A DNA stretch of 64,000 nt from an uncultured Myxococcales bacterium (GTDB lineage: Bacteria > Myxococcota_A > UBA9042), in NCBI GenBank assembly GCA_903842345.1, contig CAIMLR010000014.1, forward strand, positions 124,001 through 188,000. Reading direction: 5' to 3'. The notes beneath the pieces are model-generated. The model searched no databases, was not told where the DNA came from, and saw only the letters and a list, made by a program, of their open reading frames with translations. How positions within the stretch are numbered: position 1 is the stretch's first letter; each line of letters begins with the position of its first letter. This document shows, piece after piece, positions 44,844 through 55,440 of the stretch. The translations under genes and the position numbers were made by a program.

Positions 44844-45806
44844 ATGATCGGTCTGCGAACACCTGTGGTTGCCTTCGCTGTAGCGATCGCGCTGCTCCTG
44901 CCTCTCGGCGCGTACGCCGCCAAGCCCCCCGCCAAGAAGAAGCCCGAAGCGACGACGCCAGCCGTCTCGCCGGAAAAGCCATCGGTTGTCACGACGACGC
45001 CAGGTGAGGCGCCTGTAGCCGCGCCCGCACCCGCGGAAGCACCTGGCACGTTGCCGCCGCCCGCCGCCTCGCCGTTTGGTGATGATGGCGCCAAGGACAC
45101 GGTCAAGGCCAAAGAGGAAGCGGAGCCCACGCGCTCGTTGTTTGAAGGCTTCTTCATCAACTTCAACCTCGGCTATGCCACGGCCGGCGGCAAAGACGGC
45201 CCAGTCATCCCCGACCCGAGCAACTCATCAGAAATCAGCCAGTTCGGCGCATTTGCCAAGTGGGCAGCCAAAGACTGCCTGTACCCGGGCCAGGCGTGCT
45301 ACAGCAAGGCTGTGACGACCAACAAGGGCGCCGGCTTGGCCATCGCGCTGCAGATTGGCTACAACATCAAAGGTTACGTGTCCTTGTGGGCTGACGTCAG
45401 CGGCCATGGCAGCTTTGGCGCCTCGACCGATCTCGCGGGCGTCGGCACCGGCGCGGCGATGGTCGGCTTCCACCCGCTGCGCTTCGTCAAGAAAGGCCAG
45501 CTGCCCGTCGATCTGAAGGTCTACGGCGGCTTCGGCTTCTTTGAAATCCTCGGCTACAACGAGAACCAGTTCCAGAGCGACGCCAAGGGCAAAGCCTGGC
45601 TCGGCACGTCGATTCCGTTCGGCCTCTCAACCGAGGTCAAGTTCGACAAGAAGAGCGTGTTCGCCATGGGCCTCGACCTCCGCTTCGTCGCCGCGTCCTA
45701 CGACAAGTGGGTCTACAACAACGACAAGGACATCTCGTCCAAGTTGTCCACGCCTGAGACGACGCTCCGATTCGAGCCGCGCGTCATGTTTGGCTGGCAC
45801 TTCTAG
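44844..45806 (+). CDS. Putative outer-membrane beta-barrel protein
   Basis: A 320-residue exported protein. A signal peptide (about residues 1-25, ending AYA) is followed by a Pro/Ala/Lys linker to about residue 90. Then come alternating amphipathic strands: FFINFNLGYATAGG, GLAIALQIGYNIKGYVSLWADVSG, DLKVYGGFGFFEILGY, STEVKFDKKSVFAMGLDLRFVAASY. It ends with LRFEPRVMFGWHF, the aromatic C-terminus recognised by the BAM complex. Two Cys in a loop (CLYPGQAC) could form a disulfide. It is probably an eight- to ten-strand OmpA/OmpW-type barrel. No specific family is recognised. Confidence 0.75.
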   Translation: MIGLRTPVVAFAVAIALLLPLGAYAAKPPAKKKPEATTPAVSPEKPSVVTTTPGEAPVAAPAPAEAPGTLPPPAASPFGDDGAKDTVKAKEEAEPTRSLFEGFFINFNLGYATAGGKDGPVIPDPSNSSEISQFGAFAKWAAKDCLYPGQACYSKAVTTNKGAGLAIALQIGYNIKGYVSLWADVSGHGSFGASTDLAGVGTGAAMVGFHPLRFVKKGQLPVDLKVYGGFGFFEILGYNENQFQSDAKGKAWLGTSIPFGLSTEVKFDKKSVFAMGLDLRFVAASYDKWVYNNDKDISSKLSTPETTLRFEPRVMFGWHF

Positions 45807-45982: not shown

Positions 45983-47431
45983 ATGAGCTTGCCCTTCCGC
46001 CACATTCTGTTCGCGATCGTGATGGCCGGTCCGGCGCTGAACGCCTGTGGCCCGGTGCCGATTGAGACGCTGCCCGACGCGTTCACCAAGGACGCGGCTG
46101 ACGCCGGCGACGACGTGGCGATCGACATCAACCAGGACATCCAGGTGCCGGATGCGGGCGCGGATGCCAAGAAGGACGTCGATCCGAACGCCAAGGAACT
46201 CTGCAACAACAACCTGGACGACAACGGCGATGGCCGCGTCGACGAGAACTGCTGGCCGGCGCCCAATCTGCGCGCGGACGAGACGTGGTACGACTTTGGC
46301 ACCGTCACGATCGGCGGCGGCAAAGGTCCCGCGCCGACGCTGACGTTCAACGCGTCGGAGAAGAGCCAGGGCATGGTGCTTGTCGCGCGCGACATCACCG
46401 CGACGCAGAAGGCGTACGTGTGGCTCGAACAGCTTGTGACGCCGGCGGGCTTGCAGGTCATCGGCAGCGGCGATCAATGGGCGACGTCGTTCAACCGCTC
46501 CGCCGCGAGCATCGGCGAGGCGACGGCGCTTGTCGGCGAATCGCCCGAAGTGACGGTGTCCGCGGGCACGTGGACGTTCGGCTTTGTGCGCGCGCTGCAG
46601 GTGCCCTGGGAGTACGGCGGCGTGCCGCAGAAAGGCTACTTGCAGGTGGGCCTGCTGACCCGGCCGGACAACAGCGACAAGCAGGTGGTGCTGGATCTGG
46701 ACGTCTTCCTCGTGGGCGGGACGACCGGCATGACGCCCGACGCGTTTGGCAAATCCGTGCAGTGGCAGCAGATGCGCGCGAAGATCGAGTCGCTGTGGGG
46801 CGGAAAGGACAAGGTGCAGAACCCGATCGGCATCAAGCTCGGCAACGTGCAGTTCTTCGCGATGGACGGCGACGACGGCGTGAAGTTCAAGTACCTGGAC
46901 AACGTGCTCGCGGGCGACGCGACAAACGAACTGCCGCTTGTCTATCAGGCGACCGGCGCGCTGCGGCCGCAATCGACCGCGGCGACGCTCGTGCTTGTCT
47001 CCGGGCTGGACGACAAGGGGATGCCGGTCGCGGCGGGCTTGTCCCAGCTTGCCGGCATCAATGGCCTGGCGAATTCCCGCGCGAGCGGCATGGCTGTGGC
47101 GATCGACGAAGCGACGTGGGCGCAGGCACTGGCCGAGGCCGGAACGACGACGACCGCGGGCGACGTGTGGGGTGTCATCATCGCCCACGAGATCGGCCAT
47201 TTCCTCGGGCTGTGGCACACGGACGAGCACGACGGCAGCCTGCACGATCCGCTGGGCGATACGCCGGAATGCCAGATCACCGGTCAGACGTTGACTCCCG
47301 CAGCGTGCGGCAGCGTGATCGCGCGCAATTTGATGTTCTGGGCGCCCGACAGCGAAGGCAAGGCGCTCAGTATTTCCGCCGATCAGCACACCGTCGTGCG
47401 GCGATCGGCGGTCCTGCACGCGGCGCCCTAG
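45983..47431 (+). CDS. Metzincin-type metalloprotease lipoprotein
   Basis: A 482-residue lipoprotein. The signal peptide ends in LNAC (lipobox), with an Asp/Ala/Lys linker to about residue 70. It continues with a MopE-like calcium-binding motif (CNNNLDDNGDGRVDENC). The C-terminal domain carries VIIAHEIGHFLGLWH, near residue 397, the HExxHxxGxxH zinc motif of metzincins. A downstream Met-containing turn (NLMFWAP) fits the Met-turn. It is a secreted zinc endopeptidase, presumably at the cell surface. TATGCT (45969-45974) ends eight bases before the ATG with no ribosome-binding site, so the mRNA may be leaderless. Confidence 0.87.
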   Translation: MSLPFRHILFAIVMAGPALNACGPVPIETLPDAFTKDAADAGDDVAIDINQDIQVPDAGADAKKDVDPNAKELCNNNLDDNGDGRVDENCWPAPNLRADETWYDFGTVTIGGGKGPAPTLTFNASEKSQGMVLVARDITATQKAYVWLEQLVTPAGLQVIGSGDQWATSFNRSAASIGEATALVGESPEVTVSAGTWTFGFVRALQVPWEYGGVPQKGYLQVGLLTRPDNSDKQVVLDLDVFLVGGTTGMTPDAFGKSVQWQQMRAKIESLWGGKDKVQNPIGIKLGNVQFFAMDGDDGVKFKYLDNVLAGDATNELPLVYQATGALRPQSTAATLVLVSGLDDKGMPVAAGLSQLAGINGLANSRASGMAVAIDEATWAQALAEAGTTTTAGDVWGVIIAHEIGHFLGLWHTDEHDGSLHDPLGDTPECQITGQTLTPAACGSVIARNLMFWAPDSEGKALSISADQHTVVRRSAVLHAAP

Positions 47432-47461
47432 CTCGTACCGCACCTGGGCATGGAGGTTCTT

Positions 47462-48430
47462 GTGTTGCATCGCCTGTTGATCCGTCTCGTGTTTCTTGCC
47501 CTGCTGACCCCGTCGCTCGCGTTCGCCTACCCGGCGCAGGTGCGCGAGTTGCTGAAGAACGCCGGCCAATCGTTCGTGGTGCGCGCGCCGGGCACGATCG
47601 ACGAGCTGACCAAGAAAGAGCTGGAGGTCACGGCGCAAATGACCGCGCAGAAGACCGGCGGCAAGGTCTATTTCGTCATCGACAACAAGACCAAGCCGTC
47701 CGATTACGACCTGCTGTACACCGATCTGAGCCTGTCCGGCCACGACGTGGTGATTGCGTCCAACGGCCCGGGGTGGTCGCTGCAGTGCGGTAGCCTGACG
47801 GCGCAGCAGAAGCAGGACATCCTCAACCGCGAAGGTGTGGCGGGCGGCAAGCCGCTGGATCGCATGAAGGCGATCGCGAACGACGTGTCCAACGCGCTGG
47901 CCAACACAAAGGCCGTCGCGGCGCAGCTTTCCTGGAACGAGTTCCAGCACGCCAACCGCGATCGCGGACTCTCGCCCGCGCAGATGTCGGACGCGTACGC
48001 GCGCTACAAGCAGACCGGCGCGATGCCCGGCGCGGCGACGACGGTGGCGACAACGGGCCAACTGACGCCGGTCCAGCAGCCCAATGGCGGCCATGGCGGG
48101 CTGATTTTCCTCGGCGTGCTTGTCGTCGCGATTGCCGGCATCGTGTTCTGGCGGCGGCGCAAGCGGGACGCGGCGCTGGCCCAGGAATGGACGCCTGCCC
48201 TGGAAGCGCCGACGCAGATCATGACCGCGGTGTACATGAACCTGGACGGCATGGAGAAACACCCGAACTTCTCCGCGCTGATGGATCAGGCGACTGCGGT
48301 GCAGCAGAAACTGGACGCGCTCAAGGGCCAATCGCCGTCGCGCGAAGGCATCGCCCGCGCGCAATCCTTGACGGAAGAAGCCAACCGGGTGCGCCTGAGC
48401 TTTGATCAGGCCCGCCGCACACTGCGCTAA
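47462..48430 (+). CDS. TPM-domain-like membrane protein
   Basis: A 322-residue protein. GTG 47462 was chosen because GGAGG (47452-47456) is 5 bases upstream. A signal peptide (LLIRLVFLALLTPSLAFAYP) leads to an extracytoplasmic domain resembling TPM (KGG/Psb32-like): APGTIDELTKKELEVTAQMTAQKTGGKVYFVIDNKT. One transmembrane helix (LIFLGVLVVAIAGIVFW) and RRRKR follow, then a cytoplasmic helical tail of about 110 residues. TPM domains have been linked to acid phosphatase activity and photosystem repair; no function is assured here. It forms a two-gene unit with the Asp-Cys-tail protein 27 bp downstream. Confidence 0.72.
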   Translation: MLHRLLIRLVFLALLTPSLAFAYPAQVRELLKNAGQSFVVRAPGTIDELTKKELEVTAQMTAQKTGGKVYFVIDNKTKPSDYDLLYTDLSLSGHDVVIASNGPGWSLQCGSLTAQQKQDILNREGVAGGKPLDRMKAIANDVSNALANTKAVAAQLSWNEFQHANRDRGLSPAQMSDAYARYKQTGAMPGAATTVATTGQLTPVQQPNGGHGGLIFLGVLVVAIAGIVFWRRRKRDAALAQEWTPALEAPTQIMTAVYMNLDGMEKHPNFSALMDQATAVQQKLDALKGQSPSREGIARAQSLTEEANRVRLSFDQARRTLR

Positions 48431-48457
48431 ATGCGCCACCACGCCCTGAGGTAGCCC

Positions 48458-49696
48458 ATGCGTTTGACAGCCCAAGCCCGGATTTTCCTGCCCGGTGAAG
48501 ACGTGTTCCGCAAACCGACTTTTTGGGACAAGGTCGGCAGCTTCTTTGGCGGCGAGGCCGATCTGCGCACGGGCGAGATCCAGCTGACTCAGGACGTGCT
48601 CGCGCTGACGGAGCAACTGCAGCAGGCGCTGGCGCTGGCCAGGATCAAGAACGCGGTGACGCTCGTTGTCGATACCGACGTGCTGTATCAGGACCTGGAA
48701 GATCGCCCGGACGACGCCGATTTGCTGGTGAATGCCGCGCGCGACAATGCGCCGCGCTTCATTCGCGGTTTTCAGGTGCTGCGGGCGGTTTTTGAACACG
48801 AAGCGGACGGTTTGCACGCGCTGATCGAGATTACCGTGCGCGCCAAGGCCAAGAAGACGGAGCCGACCGCGACCGTGTCCGTGGGCGCGCGGATCCAGGA
48901 GCTGCGCCCCAAGGAGGGCGAGTCGCTCGAGGACGCGAAGGAGCGCATCGGCAAGGCGTTGGGCAACGCGCAGCTGGTGCCGACGTACCGCAACGCGCTG
49001 AACAACTTGATGAACAAGATCGGCGCGGGCCTGCAACGCGTGTTCGCGTCGGGGCGCGTGGAAGTGGATCCGGCGGACGCGCAGATTGTCCGGCCGTCGG
49101 GCGCGGATGTGCGCGATTTGGGCCAGAACGGCGGCAACCAGCGCGACGCGGACCTGCGCAGCGCGCCGATGTACCCGGGGCGCGGTGGCTACGGTCCGTA
49201 TTACGACCCGTGGGGCACGTACTATCACGACCCGATGGACACCTTCGTGAACCTCATGATCCTGGACGCGGTCATGCACCCGCACTACAGCTGGGGCTAC
49301 GGCCCGGGCTGGCTGGGCAGCCAATGGAGCAGCTACGGCGCGCCCGTCACGATCATCAACTACAACGGCCAGCCGTACGGCAACGCGAGCGACGCGCTGC
49401 AGTATGAAGACCGCTTGGGCAACGTCCACGACACCGCCAACATGGACTTTGAAGCGGCGCACTGGGACGACAGCACGATGGCGAGCTACGACGCGGGCGA
49501 CAGCACCTGGGGCGGCAGCGGCGGCAATGGCACGTTTGACTGCGCGGGCAGCGGCGGCAGCGGCGGCGGGACGTTTGACTGCGCGGGCACGGATTGCGCG
49601 TCGTCGGACTGCTCCAGCGACTGCAGCAGCGACTGCTCGTGGGATTGCAGCAGCGACTGCAGCAGCGACTGTTCGTTTGACTGTTCGAGCGACTGA
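48458..49696 (+). CDS. Protein with C-terminal Asp-Cys repeat tail
   Basis: A 412-residue protein of unknown family with no signal peptide. The N-terminal half (about 1-200) is mixed helix and strand (LTEQLQQALALARIKNAVTLVV). The middle is Tyr/Gly/Pro-rich (MYPGRGGYGPYYDPWGTYYHDP). The last 55 residues hold ten cysteines, each preceded by Asp, in a DCSSDCSSDCSWDCSSDC-type array. Such a tail could bind metal or be a substrate for modification. It follows the TPM-like gene and likely works with it. The repeats are nearly identical at the DNA level too (GCAGCGACTGC units), a sign of recent expansion. Confidence 0.75.
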   Translation: MRLTAQARIFLPGEDVFRKPTFWDKVGSFFGGEADLRTGEIQLTQDVLALTEQLQQALALARIKNAVTLVVDTDVLYQDLEDRPDDADLLVNAARDNAPRFIRGFQVLRAVFEHEADGLHALIEITVRAKAKKTEPTATVSVGARIQELRPKEGESLEDAKERIGKALGNAQLVPTYRNALNNLMNKIGAGLQRVFASGRVEVDPADAQIVRPSGADVRDLGQNGGNQRDADLRSAPMYPGRGGYGPYYDPWGTYYHDPMDTFVNLMILDAVMHPHYSWGYGPGWLGSQWSSYGAPVTIINYNGQPYGNASDALQYEDRLGNVHDTANMDFEAAHWDDSTMASYDAGDSTWGGSGGNGTFDCAGSGGSGGGTFDCAGTDCASSDCSSDCSSDCSWDCSSDCSSDCSFDCSSD

Positions 49697-49899
49697 AAGC
49701 GTTTGCCGACGGGTATTCGCGCGCGCTCCGCTGAAGGATCCGGGACGAATGCCGCGCCAACGCCATTTTCTCGCGCAGGAGTGCGCGCCAGTCGTTTACA
49801 CCTCGACGCGAATATTCATGGCAAATTCCGCGCCGATCGCATATGCTCCCGCACCCCGGGTCGGCAGCTTCGCCACGCCGGACGACCAGGAGTTCCCAA
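49697..49899. other. Upstream region of the DEAD-box helicase
   Basis: No gene lies in these 203 bp. TATGCT (49842-49847) is a plausible -10, the same hexamer as before the metalloprotease gene (45969), but no clear -35 precedes it. Confidence 0.35.
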
Positions 49900-51810
49900 G
49901 TGACCACGCCAGATACGCCCGCTTCGGCCTTTGCAGAGCTGGGCGTCAATCCTCAGTTGTGCGCCGCCCTCGCTGCGCTTGATATCACCATTCCGACAGA
50001 AATCCAGACGCGCGCCATCCCGGAGATGCTGGCAGGCCGCGACGTGCTGGGCCGCGCACAGACGGGCACCGGCAAGACGGCCGCCTATGGCTTGCCGCTG
50101 CTGCAAATGCTCGATCCGAACGATCGCCGCGTTCAGGCGTTGGTGCTCTCCCCGACCCGCGAGCTCGCCGTGCAGGTGACGTCCGCGCTGGCCGATCTGG
50201 TCAAGAATACTGCGGATCCGGGCATCCTGGCGATCTACGGCGGCGACAGCATGGTGCGGCAGTTCCGCGCGCTGCACGCTGGCGTGCGCGTTCTGGCGGC
50301 GACGCCGGGCCGGCTGATCGACCACTTGAACCGCGGGTCCGTCGACCTGTCGGGCCTCAAGGTGATCGTGTTGGACGAAGCCGACGAGATGCTCAAAATG
50401 GGCTTTGTCGATGACGTGAAGCAGATCCTGAGCCACGCGCCTGCGCAGCGGCAGACGGCGCTCTTTTCGGCGACGCTCTCAGGCGAAATCCGCGCGATTG
50501 CCGACAGCTACCAGAAGTCGCCCGTGGTCATCGACGTGCAGTCGGTGGCGCGCACGGCGTCCACGGTGGAGCAGCGGTACGCGGTGTGCAATACCGACGA
50601 GCGCGCGGAAGCCGTGGCTCGCCTGCTGGAAGTCGAGCCCTTTGAGTCCGCGCTGGTTTTTGCCCGCACGCGGGCTGGCTGCGATCAGCTGACCGACGAA
50701 CTGCAGCGCCGCGGCGTGCCGTGTGAAGCGTTGCACGGCGACCTGGCGCAGCCCGCGCGCGAGATGGTGCTCCGGCGCCTGCGCGAGGGTCGCTTGAAAG
50801 TCGTGATTGCGACCGACGTGGCGGCGCGCGGCCTGGATGTGCCGAGCCTCGACCTCGTCGTGACGATTGAATTGCCGGGCCACTTGGAGACGTACGTGCA
50901 CCGCATTGGCCGCACGGGGCGCGCGGGTCGCACGGGCACGTCGATCCTGGTGCTCGGCCAGCGCGACGAGCGCAAGCTGCGCGGGCTGGAACGGTTCATC
51001 GGTCAGGCGCTCAAGTACCAGGCGATCCCGACTCCCGCGGAAGTGGAATGGTCGCGCCTGGAGCGGTTCGTCAACGAAGTGCGCGAGCGTGCGACGAAAG
51101 TCGACCTGACGCCGTGGCGCCGGTTGATCGAGCGCTGTGTGACCGACGAGCTGCCGCTCGAGACGATCGCCGCGACGCTTGTGCAGATGGCTGCGCCGCG
51201 GAGCTTGACGCCGGAGACGGTGATGCTCGGCACGGAGCCGAATCATCCGAGCACGGAGGGTGGCCTGCCGCTGCGCCCGCATCCAAAAGCGGTTGCGCCG
51301 CGCGAAACCCGTGAGACGAAACGTCAGGACAAGCGCGAAATGGCGCAGCCGACGCGCGACCACGTGAGCGATATGCCGCAGCCGCGCGGTGATGTTGCGC
51401 CGCGTCCGGAGCGCCCTGCCCGCGCTGAGAAAGCGCCGCGCGCTGAACGGGCGCCGCGCGATGTGGCGCCGCATGAGATTCCGCAGGATGCGCCGCAGCC
51501 GGCGATGCCGCGTGGCCTCCAGCCGTCGGACGAGCCCAAGGGCGCGAATGCCCCGAAGCGCAAGATGGTCATGATGTCCCTGGGCGTGGGTCGCCGCAAT
51601 GGCGTGACTCCGGCGATGCTGGTGGCGTGCCTGCAGACGCAGGCCAAGCTGCCGTCGCGCCTGCTCGGGACGATCGACATCATGGAGAACTTCAGCCGCG
51701 TGGAAGTGCCGGCTGAAGCGGCGCAGCACATGGCGGAAGTCCTGCGCGGCGTGCTGGTCTGCGGTCGCTACCTGAATCCGCGTCCGGCCAGCGAGACGAT
51801 GGGCGATTGA
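49900..51810 (+). CDS. DEAD-box RNA helicase (DeaD/DbpA-like)
   Basis: A 636-residue ATP-dependent RNA helicase. GTG 49900 has AGGAG seven bases upstream. The Q-motif region (PTEIQTRAIPEMLAGRD) precedes motif I AQTGTGKT (about residue 52), PTRELAVQ, DEADEM (about 158) and SAT. In the second RecA domain come VFARTRAG, ATDVAARGLDVPSLDLVV and HRIGRTGRAGRTG. A charged, repetitive linker (PERPARAEKAPRAERAP) leads to a C-terminal DbpA-type RRM (about 550-636: SLGVGRRNGVTPAMLVACL). It probably acts in ribosome assembly or cold-dependent RNA remodelling. Confidence 0.95.
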   Translation: MTTPDTPASAFAELGVNPQLCAALAALDITIPTEIQTRAIPEMLAGRDVLGRAQTGTGKTAAYGLPLLQMLDPNDRRVQALVLSPTRELAVQVTSALADLVKNTADPGILAIYGGDSMVRQFRALHAGVRVLAATPGRLIDHLNRGSVDLSGLKVIVLDEADEMLKMGFVDDVKQILSHAPAQRQTALFSATLSGEIRAIADSYQKSPVVIDVQSVARTASTVEQRYAVCNTDERAEAVARLLEVEPFESALVFARTRAGCDQLTDELQRRGVPCEALHGDLAQPAREMVLRRLREGRLKVVIATDVAARGLDVPSLDLVVTIELPGHLETYVHRIGRTGRAGRTGTSILVLGQRDERKLRGLERFIGQALKYQAIPTPAEVEWSRLERFVNEVRERATKVDLTPWRRLIERCVTDELPLETIAATLVQMAAPRSLTPETVMLGTEPNHPSTEGGLPLRPHPKAVAPRETRETKRQDKREMAQPTRDHVSDMPQPRGDVAPRPERPARAEKAPRAERAPRDVAPHEIPQDAPQPAMPRGLQPSDEPKGANAPKRKMVMMSLGVGRRNGVTPAMLVACLQTQAKLPSRLLGTIDIMENFSRVEVPAEAAQHMAEVLRGVLVCGRYLNPRPASETMGD

Positions 51811-52042
51811 TCCCGGTCGGGAGGGTCGCCGTTTCGTTTCGGCGGCCACCTCGCAGGGTGTGGGCACGGGCGGATCGCGCCACGAGAAGATCGGCGTTTG
51901 GCGTCGTCCCAGCCGCGGCAGGGACCCGACGCGAAGCGCCGAGACCCGCATCGGGGCTCGGTTCTGGCTGTTCGACAGCCAGAATCGGCGGCCCGGTCCC
52001 CGCTTCCGAAGCGGGGAGCCGCCCAAATGCCGCTTCTGCGCG
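51811..52042. other. Convergent intergenic region with two perfect hairpins
   Basis: TTCTGGCTG-TTCGA-CAGCCAGAA (51962-51984) and TCCCCGCTT-CCG-AAGCGGGGA (51997-52017) are two adjacent, perfect 9-bp stems between converging genes. Neither has a T-tract. They may act as bidirectional transcription stops or RNA stabilisers. Confidence 0.5.
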
Positions 52043-53104
52043 CTAGATTTTCCCCCGCAAATACTGATCCGGCCACACCACGTCCGCGCCCAATACGCGC
52101 GCCGCGCGCAGGGGCCAGCGCGGATCGCGCAGCAGCTCACGCGCGAGGAACACCACGTCGGCTTGCTCCGTCGCGACGATCTGCTCGGCCTGCGCCGGCG
52201 CGGTGATCATCCCGACTGCGCCAGTCGCAATCCCGGCGTGCTGGCGGATCGCCGCGGCAAACGGCACCTGGAAACCCGGCCCAACGGGAACGACCGCATC
52301 GTGAACGAGCGCACCTGTCGACACGTCGATGAGGTCAATCCCGAGCGCGTTGAGCTCCTGGCACAGCGCGATCGAGCCGGCGAGATCCCAACCGCCGTCT
52401 TTCCAATCCGTCGCGGAAATGCGCACGAACACCGGGAGATCGTGCGGGAACGCCTCGCGCACCGCCTGAGCGACGCGGAGCGGCAGGCGCATCCGATTGG
52501 CCAGCGAGCCGCCGTAGTCATCCGTGCGGTGATTGGCGAGCGGCGACAGGAACTGGTGCAGCAGGTAGCCGTGGGCGGCGTGCACTTCCACACACTGGAA
52601 ACCGGCGGCATGCGCGCGTTGCGTCGCGGTACCAAACGCCGCTACGACTGCGTCTATCTCGTCCAGCGTCATGGCCACGGGCGCTGGCGAATGGCCAAAT
52701 GCCACGGCGGACGGCGCCAGCGTCTGCCAACCGCCATCCTCCGGAAGCACGGGCTTGCCCCCCTGCCACGGCGGCGAAGTCGACGACTTGCGGCCCGCGT
52801 GCGCCAACTGCACGGCCGGAATCGCGCCATGCGCCGCGACAAACCGCGTGACCCGCTGCCAATCGGCAATGTGCGCGTCCGACCACAGCCCGGCGTCATC
52901 TGGACTGATGCGCCCCTCCGGCAGCACGGCGGTCGCCTCGGCCATCACAAGCCCCGCGCCGCCCGTCGCCAGCCCGCCCAAGTGCACGAGATGCCAGTCA
53001 TTGACGTGGCCGTCGTCGCACGAGTACATGCACATCGGCGCAACGAAGATGCGGTTGCGTGCCGTCAGGCTGCGCAACTTCAAAGGTTCAAAAAGCTTGA
53101 CCAT
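52043..53104 (-). CDS. NADH:flavin oxidoreductase (YqjM-type old yellow enzyme)
   Basis: A 353-residue FMN enzyme that reduces activated C=C bonds with NAD(P)H. The start is ATG 53104 with GGAG six bases upstream. It has MFEPLKL-type N-terminal VKLFEPLKLRSLTARNRIFVAPMCMYS, QLAHAGRKSS, GFQCVEVHAAHGYLLHQFLSPLANHRTDDYGGS (the substrate His pair and Tyr region), and the C-terminal GMITAPAQAEQIV and FLARELLRDPRWPLRAA. The Cys in APMCMYS is the redox-tuning Cys of the YqjM/thermophilic-like class. It converges with the helicase gene. Confidence 0.93.
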   Translation of the reverse strand: MVKLFEPLKLRSLTARNRIFVAPMCMYSCDDGHVNDWHLVHLGGLATGGAGLVMAEATAVLPEGRISPDDAGLWSDAHIADWQRVTRFVAAHGAIPAVQLAHAGRKSSTSPPWQGGKPVLPEDGGWQTLAPSAVAFGHSPAPVAMTLDEIDAVVAAFGTATQRAHAAGFQCVEVHAAHGYLLHQFLSPLANHRTDDYGGSLANRMRLPLRVAQAVREAFPHDLPVFVRISATDWKDGGWDLAGSIALCQELNALGIDLIDVSTGALVHDAVVPVGPGFQVPFAAAIRQHAGIATGAVGMITAPAQAEQIVATEQADVVFLARELLRDPRWPLRAARVLGADVVWPDQYLRGKI

Positions 53105-53155
53105 GGCGGGCTCCACGGGCGAATTGCCGCGGGGATCTTGGCAGATCGCGCGGCG

Positions 53156-53848
53156 CTACGCCAAAATCTCCTGCGTCCGCGCCACAACCTCGCCCGTCGC
53201 CACGTGCCCGTGCGCCGGCACCACCGCGATCAGCCGCTCACGCCCCATGCGCGCGCGCACGTCCGCCTTCCACGCCTGCTTGTCCTTCAGGTACAGCAGC
53301 GACGCCAGCGGGTTGTACCGATAGCCCGGACCGCCGCCGGCCAGCCTTGAAATCGCGCGGAAAATCAGCCCGCCCTCGCCCGGCGCCTGATTGGAGATCA
53401 AATCGCCGCCAAACCAGATCGCGCCCTCGGGCGTCGAGGCGTGCACGAGCAAATCGGTCGATTTCAACCCGTGGGGCGCGATCACCTGCACGTGCGGCCC
53501 AAGCCGCGGCTGGAGCGCGCTGATCGGCTGGTAGTCGAGGCCGCTCTTCTTGGAAACGCGCGGGATCGCGTCCTCAGGCGCGTAGCTCACGGCGTTGGGA
53601 AAGTGCTTGCGCCACTGCGCCTGGCCCAGGTGGTGGAAGGCGTTGGGCGCCAAAAGCGCACTCACGGCGCCGTGTTTCGCCAAGGCGTCAAGGGCCGCCT
53701 CGGGCGCACGGGAAGCCGGGCTGACGACAAGAAAGGTGCCGTCATCGAGCCTCACCGCCATCGTGTTGGCGGTGCCCGGACCAAACGAATACGTCAGCAT
53801 CTGCACGTTACCGGTGGAGTCCAACGCTTGCCATTGATACAGTGCCAT
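53156..53848 (-). CDS. DUF4336-like (metallo-hydrolase-fold) protein
   Basis: A 230-residue protein related to DUF4336/MBL-fold proteins: FGPGTANTMAVRLDDGTFLVVSP, APNAFHHLGQAQWRKHFPNAVSYAP, and the late VPAHGHVATG. The classic HxHxDH metal motif is missing, so hydrolase activity is doubtful. ATG 53848 is preferred over the upstream start. It is divergent from the radical SAM gene, with 59 bp between the starts. Confidence 0.7.
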   Translation of the reverse strand: MALYQWQALDSTGNVQMLTYSFGPGTANTMAVRLDDGTFLVVSPASRAPEAALDALAKHGAVSALLAPNAFHHLGQAQWRKHFPNAVSYAPEDAIPRVSKKSGLDYQPISALQPRLGPHVQVIAPHGLKSTDLLVHASTPEGAIWFGGDLISNQAPGEGGLIFRAISRLAGGGPGYRYNPLASLLYLKDKQAWKADVRARMGRERLIAVVPAHGHVATGEVVARTQEILA

Positions 53849-53907
53849 CTCGCCCTCGCGCATGTCCCGAAACTGGGTGCGCTGAGTCTACGCAAGGTTG
53901 AACGCCA

Positions 53908-55440
53908 GTGTCCACGCCGACTACCGCAACCGCTGAGTCTCTGCCCCCGCGTTCTGCGTGGCCGGATCTGGCCATTCGCCGAGCGCCCAGCCTCGCGCAT
54001 GGCCACGTGCGCGGCCAAGCCTGGCTGCATAACCCGCATGGCTACAACGCGTTGGCGCTGCTCTCCCCGGTCGCCTGGCAAATCTGGTCGGCCGCTGACG
54101 GTCGGAGCGTGACGGACGTGCTGGCGGACCTGCCGGAAATACCGCTGGAACGCGCGCTCCAGGAGCTCCCACTGCTCTGGCGCAACGGCTTCCTGCTGTC
54201 GCCGGGTATTGCGCTGCAGCGGCCGCCGCCCAGGACGGAGCGCGTGTTCAACGCCTGGCTGCACCTGACCAACGCCTGCAACCTCGCGTGTCCGTACTGC
54301 TACATCCACAAGTCGACCGATCACATGGAAGGCCACGTCAGCCAAAAGACGCTGGAAGCGATCGAGGCGACGGCGAAGTCGGGCGACGTCGAGCGCATTC
54401 ACGTCCGATTCGCCGGCGGCGAGCCCATGCTGCAGTTCCCGCAGATGCAGCAGTTCTTTGCCGACGCGACCGCGCGCTGCGAGGCGCACGGCGTGAAATT
54501 CTCCGCAGCGGTGCTGACCAATGGCGTGCTGGTGCCCGACGGCGCGATCGCCTGGCTGCAGGCCAACCACGTCTCGGTGTCGGTGTCGATTGACGGCGTG
54601 GGCTCGGTTCAGGACGCGATGCGCCCAGTCAAAGGCGGCGGGCCGTCGTTTGCCCGGCTGGAGGCGGGGCTAGACGCCTATCTCGCCGCGGGCATTCGCC
54701 CGTACATCCTCATCACCATTGGCGAATCGAATATCGACGGGCTGGCGGAACTGACCGATTGGCTGCTGGCGCGCGACCTCTCGTTTCGCTACAGCCTTGT
54801 GCGCGATCTGGAATGGGGCGCGGGTGAACTGGACGATCGGCGCGGTGCCGCGGAGGCAGAGCTGCATCAGGACGTGCCGCAGACGATGCTCGCGGGCGAG
54901 GCGCTGGCACGCGTGCAGCGCGCGCTGGCCCAAGCGTATGACCGGATTGAACGGCACCTGATCGCCGCGCACGCCGCGGGACGGCGGCCAAAGGCGTCGT
55001 TCCGGCAGTCGCACAAATTCTGCGATCTGGAGCTGTGGCGGCCGATTGAGCAAGCGTGTGGCGCGGGGCGCAGCTACGTCGCGATCGCGGAGACGGGCGC
55101 GGTGAGTCCCTGCCAGGCCGCGCTTCACCACCCCGGAACGCAGCCGATTCGCGCCGAGAGCCTGCTGAGCCAAGCCCGCGCCCAGACGCAATTCCAGCCG
55201 TTCCAACGCCACACGCTCAACGCGGAATGCGCGCGGTGCCCGTTCAAGGCAAGCTGCGCTGGCGGCTGTCCGCTGCTGCTGTACCGACGCGAAGGTCACG
55301 TCGACGGCCGGTCGCCGTATTGCGAAGTGTTCCGCGCCGTGATTCCGCGCATTCTGGCCATCTCTGCACTGGAGATGCTGCTGCAACGTCAGGCGGGCCC
55401 CGCGCCGGCTCCCGGGAGAATGGATGCTCAACTGGCATGA
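53908..55440 (+). CDS. Radical SAM/SPASM peptide-modifying enzyme
   Basis: A 510-residue radical SAM maturase. Residues about 45-110 resemble a PqqD-like RiPP recognition element (LALLSPVAWQIWSAADGRSVTDVLADL). The radical SAM [4Fe-4S] motif CNLACPYCY lies at about 126-134, followed by RFAGGEPMLQF. The C-terminal SPASM domain holds at least seven cysteines (FCDLELW, QACGAG, SPCQAAL, ECARCPFKASCAGGCPL, YCEVF) for two auxiliary clusters, as in anSME and other peptide maturases. No sulfatase and no obvious precursor peptide lies next to it. It overlaps mscS by 17 bp. Confidence 0.9.
   Translation: MSTPTTATAESLPPRSAWPDLAIRRAPSLAHGHVRGQAWLHNPHGYNALALLSPVAWQIWSAADGRSVTDVLADLPEIPLERALQELPLLWRNGFLLSPGIALQRPPPRTERVFNAWLHLTNACNLACPYCYIHKSTDHMEGHVSQKTLEAIEATAKSGDVERIHVRFAGGEPMLQFPQMQQFFADATARCEAHGVKFSAAVLTNGVLVPDGAIAWLQANHVSVSVSIDGVGSVQDAMRPVKGGGPSFARLEAGLDAYLAAGIRPYILITIGESNIDGLAELTDWLLARDLSFRYSLVRDLEWGAGELDDRRGAAEAELHQDVPQTMLAGEALARVQRALAQAYDRIERHLIAAHAAGRRPKASFRQSHKFCDLELWRPIEQACGAGRSYVAIAETGAVSPCQAALHHPGTQPIRAESLLSQARAQTQFQPFQRHTLNAECARCPFKASCAGGCPLLLYRREGHVDGRSPYCEVFRAVIPRILAISALEMLLQRQAGPAPAPGRMDAQLA

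Follow-up and report, generated by a model that had tools for sequence, protein, structure and literature searches.

The most constant companion of a C-terminal Asp-Cys tail found in Myxococcota is a gene for a radical-SAM/SPASM maturase. The tail was identified in a stretch of 64,000 nucleotides (the window; G000:C14:124001-188000) in a 5.8 Mb assembly, whose named relatives are uncultured Myxococcales MAGs. The original prediction paired the tail protein (protein 2) with a TPM-like membrane protein (protein 1) and overlooked the third gene, for the maturase. The actual system is the tail protein plus the maturase, with the former as the putative substrate of the latter. Judged from the sequences, the tail is very probably modified by the maturase encoded downstream of it, and the product is probably a Cys-Asp thioether. 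The best explanation, which we consider likely, is that protein 2 carries a built-in ranthipeptide-like substrate, the tail of which would be converted into Cys-Asp thioether rings that are kept on the protein. Features of the locus are listed in the table.

Features of the window (window positions; strand as annotated)
Feature	Position	Strand	Remarks
Secreted protein, unknown family, outer-membrane-like	44844..45806	+	Conserved upstream neighbour; system membership uncertain
Lipoprotein-type metzincin-like protease	45983..47431	+	Lipobox LNAC, HEIGHFLGLWH; conserved upstream neighbour
Protein 1	47450..48430	+	326 aa; divergent TPM-fold membrane protein; ORF call
Protein 2	48458..49696	+	412 aa; cytosolic scaffold plus C-terminal Asp-Cys tail
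Scaffold part of protein 2 (residues 1 to ~341)	48458..49480	+	Proposed built-in leader or docking part
Asp-Cys tail	49532..49693	+	Ten D-C units, mainly DCSSDCSWDCSS, 4-residue period, Asp end, disordered in model
Intervening genes, not part of system	49843..53863	.	DEAD-box helicase, OYE-type flavin oxidoreductase, metallo-hydrolase-like protein; named by eye
Radical-SAM/SPASM peptide maturase	53908..55437	+	GTG start assumed; RRE-like N-terminal region, CNLACPYC, SPASM cysteines

The genes for proteins 1 and 2 are co-directional and lie 27 bp apart. All ten Cys of protein 2 fall in its last 55 residues, each within an Asp-Cys pair, as originally predicted, and when the residues of the tail were shuffled 200,000 times, no shuffle placed an Asp before every Cys. 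A DNA tandem repeat artefact was ruled out by the alternation of synonymous codons along the tail (GAC/GAT, TGC/TGT, AGC/TCG/TCC). Over the last 36 tail residues, the window and G002 are 94% identical in protein and 86% in DNA. The scaffold of protein 2 was modelled reasonably well, with a mean pLDDT of 75.5 for the whole protein; values fell below 50 over residues 346-412. No family in Pfam or NCBIfam was matched by protein 2; an identity with DUF1517 was considered and set aside on these searches. Solved folds gave no confident match to the scaffold model, the best (YwmB, 2fpn) being rejected at a probability of 0.77 and an rmsd of 19.

Tail statistics were collected from 18 homologues, comprising the 17 members of the window's family (f1) with an assembled 3' end and the distant G342. 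The tail was present in all 17, i.e. in every full-length family homologue, and arrays ranged from 7 to 18 units. Asp precedes 170 of 170 tail Cys. The distance n from a tail Cys to the next Asp is 0-6 for 167 of the 170 (n=2 in 119, n=3 in 26), so that nearly all of them form a Cys-Xn-Asp within the range accepted by PapB. The last Cys is followed by Asp in 17 of 18 tails, in endings that vary (DCSSD, DCGGD, DCGGGGD, DCSDW, DCGGSDW, DCGGGGSDW); the G007 tail ends DCS and is the only one to lack the closing Asp. With an Asp before each Cys and a further Asp at the end, each Cys thus owns one downstream Asp. If the unit were simply repeated, no closing Asp would be required. Spacers are variable (SS, SW, SF, SA, AW, GG).

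Neither a signal peptide nor a transmembrane segment was found in protein 2, in agreement with the lack of a signal peptide noted originally. The protein looks cytosolic, which is the compartment where a radical-SAM enzyme could act. The same localisation bears on a reading of the tail as a structural low-complexity element that engages in disulfides or polymerises through disulfides between chains. In other Myxococcota, the same scaffold carries C-termini of low complexity, some of them containing Cys. Such a tail is nevertheless very improbable here, since a protein with neither signal peptide nor transmembrane segment would remain in a reducing compartment, and disulfides leave unexplained the maturase, the closing Asp and the constant presence of Asp ahead of each Cys.

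The conserved gene order is Rrf2, S21, secreted protein, metzincin, TPM, Asp-Cys protein and maturase. The maturase lies directly behind the tail gene in 13 related genomes. In G342 the two genes overlap, the maturase starting within the stop codon of the tail protein (TGATG). In the window the two genes are ~4.2 kb apart. Insertion between them of the helicase and oxidoreductase genes is limited to the window's genus (G000, G002, G004), with the extra hydrolase-like gene in G000 and G004; in G001 and G003 the tail gene and maturase are on separate contigs. The TPM gene adjoins the Asp-Cys gene throughout the family, which bears out the proposed pairing of the two, and no TPM partner was found near the G342 copy. 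The TPM protein is thus a conserved and not a universal partner of the tail protein. The further suggestion of a closed two-protein surface or metal-storage system was not supported, since the maturase accompanies the tail even in the TPM-less G342. The metzincin-like lipoprotein, which contains a weak MopE-like acidic Cys motif and precedes the TPM gene in most genomes of the family, is possibly an accessory protease, and as a conserved neighbour it bears on whether a leader might be cleaved off and a core set free as in RiPP precursors. No qhp genes were found among the conserved neighbours examined.

The window's own genome yielded no other Asp-Cys-tail protein. When the phylum was searched for DNA resembling the tail, a single genuine member from beyond the family was recovered. 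It is in G342, a genome of another Myxococcota family, whose protein 2 is 36% identical and has 18 tail Cys. Matches in G015 (L026, L027), G344, G154, G189, G263 and G009 were rejected on inspection as out-of-frame or unrelated low-complexity sequence, and those in G158 and G067 as unrelated Cys-rich or out-of-frame sequence.

A total of 379 Myxococcota genomes were surveyed for the maturase and with a profile of protein 2. The profile matched 39 genomes: 20 with the tail (19 from f1 plus G342), 18 with the scaffold only, and G344, where the match was to out-of-frame tail-like sequence. The maturase was found in 22 of the 379. Its orthologue was present in 19 of the 20 tail genomes, the exception (G020) being cut by a contig end within the tail gene, in 3 of the 359 other genomes searched, and in 0 of the 18 genomes, from several families, with the scaffold and without the Asp-Cys tail. 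The f1 genomes represent one lineage and G342 a second, and the 20 tail genomes are therefore not 20 independent events. No maturase was found on plasmids. Homologues without the tail, which had been named as grounds for refutation, were confined to other families within the phylum; the second such ground, a lack of linkage elsewhere between the genes for proteins 1 and 2, is countered by their linkage across the whole family. The option of a modified tail gains support from the co-conservation of the tail with the maturase.

The three maturase genomes without an Asp-Cys repeat (G008, G105, G139) had no Asp-Cys substrate near the maturase. In G008 (L053:4436-6667), a protein 1 without the TPM domain is followed directly by an intact maturase, and the tail gene is missing. 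In G105 (L144:5690-9231), the maturase is right behind a gene resembling glutamate-cysteine ligase by eye, and this enzyme possibly acts on another substrate. Persistence of the maturase in these three genomes, together with its position after the TPM-less protein 1 of G008, would fit a true substrate elsewhere in the cluster, with the tail as an incidental feature. We regard this as quite improbable, given that the Asp-Cys protein was the only neighbour found common to G342 and the f1 cluster, and that protein 1 of the window contains a single Cys.

The first ~276 residues of protein 2 are also found elsewhere in the Myxococcota, followed by different tails. The tails read in these scaffold homologues were Cys-free Asp/Gly repeats (G340, G371, G369, G293, G336, G287, G299, G370), Gly-Cys (G109, G283, G269, G368, G354) or unrelated ends. 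Acidic Cys-free Asp/Gly tails at L169, L180, L181 and L182 (G340, G287, G299, G336) read, for example, GGDDFGGDDFGGDWGGFD or DDGDYEDDGDYEDDGDYED. In G109 (L170:5340-9272) and G283 (L184:1941-5754), the scaffold with a SSCGSSCGGGCGGGY tail is followed directly by a radical-SAM gene of the SbtM family (TIGR04082, 463 bits, over the cut-off of 350); the scaffold protein of these two genomes appears to be a protein-sized SbtM substrate. SbtM was not found in the other Gly-Cys-tail genomes G269, G368, G354 and G232, and no SbtM-type gene was found in the window's genome. At L171:2614-3384 (G269), a weak TPM-family profile match (E 1.2e-6) lies beside a scaffold protein with a SCGSSCGSSCGGGCGGGGD tail, hinting that the pairing of TPM protein and scaffold may be older than the family. 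Because one scaffold occurs with differing tails and differing radical-SAM types, it can be argued that the tails are substrates and the scaffold is a docking part.

The joint switch of tail type and radical-SAM type in G109 and G283 is also relevant to the tail as an unmodified metal- or cluster-ligand array of Asp carboxylates and Cys thiolates, in keeping with the metal binding suggested originally, with the radical-SAM gene as an unrelated neighbour. Acid and thiol ligands do alternate along the tail, the last 72 residues of protein 2 contain 13 acidic and no basic residues, the upstream protease has its weak MopE-like motif, and the window maturase is set off from the tail gene by the 4.2 kb noted above. 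The adjacency or overlap of the two genes in other genomes and the absence of the maturase from all scaffold genomes without the Asp-Cys tail argue, along with the joint switch, against an unrelated neighbour, and a bare ligand array is accordingly judged improbable.

The enzyme was identified as a radical-SAM/SPASM peptide maturase by its CX3CX2C motif, SPASM cysteine pattern and PqqD/RRE-like N-terminal region. The motif is CNxxCPYC, invariant, with C124, C128 and C131; the SPASM cysteines follow C384-X12-G-X4-C402 and then CX2CX5CX3C-gap-C. PF04055 was detected in 19 of 19 maturases and the SPASM model PF13186 weakly in 9. Orthologues were present in 19 of the 22 family genomes and are ~50% identical to that of G342 (E ≤1.2e-117). 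The best solved relative was 5wgg (2.5e-32), which we take to be the structure of the SCIFF maturase CteB; the alignment begins at residue 25 and resumes in the SPASM part. Among NCBIfam families the window maturase scored highest against the nif11-type maturase (TIGR04064; 129 bits, below the cut-off of 518.7), followed by PapB (NF047865; 119 bits, E 2.1e-34, below 340), QhpD (TIGR03906; 106 bits, below 453) and the SCIFF maturase (TIGR03974; 98.5 bits, below 425). The best NCBIfam relatives of the G342 enzyme were PapB (110 bits, 1.5e-31) and QhpD (E 3.3e-31), and the G008 enzyme gave 119 bits against PapB; none of these scores reached its cut-off. PapB and QhpD matches fall mainly on the radical-SAM core. 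Because the maturase is below every curated cut-off, assignment to a family does not reveal which bond it forms. The maturase is a separate subfamily, and the bond type proposed here is inferred from the substrate.

Similar scores for the nif11, SCIFF, PapB, QhpD, DynA and cyclophane maturase families would also accommodate a radical-SAM product of another kind on the same tail, such as a sactionine (S to C-alpha), a Cys-Ser or Cys-aromatic link, or a decarboxylated or epimerised tail. Ser fills most spacer positions, and aromatics recur in them (SW 24, SF 11, SY 3). The spacers vary, however, while the Asp before Cys is invariant and Asp almost always closes the tail; moreover, the Asp-using relative PapB makes S to C-beta links (PMC9413430). 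A product of another kind is therefore considered unlikely, although it is the alternative to which we give some weight.

Protein 1 was confirmed as TPM-like at the level of the fold. Its ORF starts at 47450, and 47462, the start taken previously, is an internal GTG. The protein comprises a signal peptide, a TPM-fold domain (~28-155), a W-N-E-F-Q linker, a transmembrane helix (~216-236) and a C-terminal helical domain. The helix is followed by RRRKRD on the presumed cytosolic side, and by the positive-inside rule the C-terminal domain would be cytosolic. Window protein 1 gave no match to the Pfam TPM model PF04536, which was matched by 10 of 20 protein 1 homologues (best E 1.3e-4). In a Foldseek search with the AlphaFold model (pLDDT 83), the top nine matches were all TPM or TPM-like structures at a probability of 1.00 (best E 2.3e-4, Psb32 8c7i), and the matches included Psb32, TLP18.3, cg2496, BA41, PG_0361 and 7tbr.

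In the preferred reading, Cys-Asp thioether formation on the tail, protein 2 would act as a protein-sized substrate, the folded scaffold serving as a permanent leader recognised by the maturase. Binding of the scaffold would probably involve the RRE-like N-terminal region of the enzyme. A side-chain carbon of Asp would lose a hydrogen to a 5'-deoxyadenosyl radical, and the sulfur of the Cys three positions upstream would close a CX2D ring; most rings would be CX2D, with CX1-6D also formed. Repeated closure would produce a string of adjacent thioether rings, the last at the terminal Asp. The modified tail, acidic and protease-resistant, would remain in the cytosol and work with the cytosolic helical domain of the TPM protein, with which we infer a partnership, possibly as a rigid metal-binding element. 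Several findings were counted against the thioether proposal. The preferred CX2D is shorter than the native CX3D of PapB; three genomes have the maturase without the tail, and G007 lacks the closing Asp; the maturase is below all curated cut-offs, with the nif11 type scoring above PapB; and the co-occurrence derives from two independent lineages, f1 and G342. More tentatively, and with slightly less than even confidence, the Myxococcota scaffold may be a permanent radical-SAM platform with exchangeable tails, which here would bear an unreleased ladder of Cys-Asp thioether rings on a TPM-partnered cytosolic protein.

To our knowledge, nearly all known cases of thioether formation by radical-SAM enzymes concern short precursor peptides, QhpC being the notable exception among proteins. 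If the proposal is true, this chemistry extends to a larger protein that is retained and permanently modified, and a protein-borne polythioether, a new kind of modified tail, takes the place of a released natural product. The natural swap of tail type and enzyme type on one scaffold would be useful for studies of leader recognition. The proposal further provides a testable explanation of the Asp-Cys motifs that were described in precursors in 2022 (PMC9062424). These motifs, up to six per precursor, belong to the radical-SAM 'Cluster 59' and 'Cluster 115', have no known product, and are the sole published mention found of repeated Asp-Cys motifs beside a radical-SAM gene (PMC9062424). Those clusters combine a peptide with a recombinase gene, whereas the present system has a scaffold protein, 7-18 units, a TPM partner and a Myxococcota host. 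A literature search for TPM proteins linked with radical-SAM genes returned no paper.

The locus was compared with several known systems. TPM domain proteins (PF04536; Psb32, TLP18.3, cg2496) share the fold of protein 1, which is missed by the Pfam model in the window and has a C-terminal helical domain of its own. The SbtM thio(seleno)oxazole maturase systems (TIGR04082) are linked through G109 and G283, where the scaffold bears a Gly-Cys tail and has an SbtM-type gene behind it; the window system has another radical-SAM family and another tail. For SCIFF/CteB (5wgg), the alignment to the window maturase spans the RRE-like region, the radical-SAM core and the SPASM part, and the SCIFF maturase is thioether-forming; the SCIFF substrate, however, is a 45-residue six-Cys peptide, compared with 412 aa here. 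QhpD forms Cys-Asp/Glu thioethers in the QhpC protein, the gamma subunit of quinohemoprotein amine dehydrogenase, and the modified protein stays a working protein (PMC7876137), but the Asp-Cys repeat array is absent from QhpC as described. In PapA/PapB, the freyrasin-type ranthipeptide system (NF047865), a radical-SAM/SPASM enzyme is likewise encoded next to a substrate rich in Cys-Xn-Asp. The Cys-Asp links made by PapB span 0-6 residues (Cys-Xn-Asp), can be nested or arranged in line, and may occur several times per chain (PMC9413430). PapA is a short peptide with six CX3D, whereas the proposed substrate here is a protein of 400 aa in which the DC units recur every 4 residues (CX2D).
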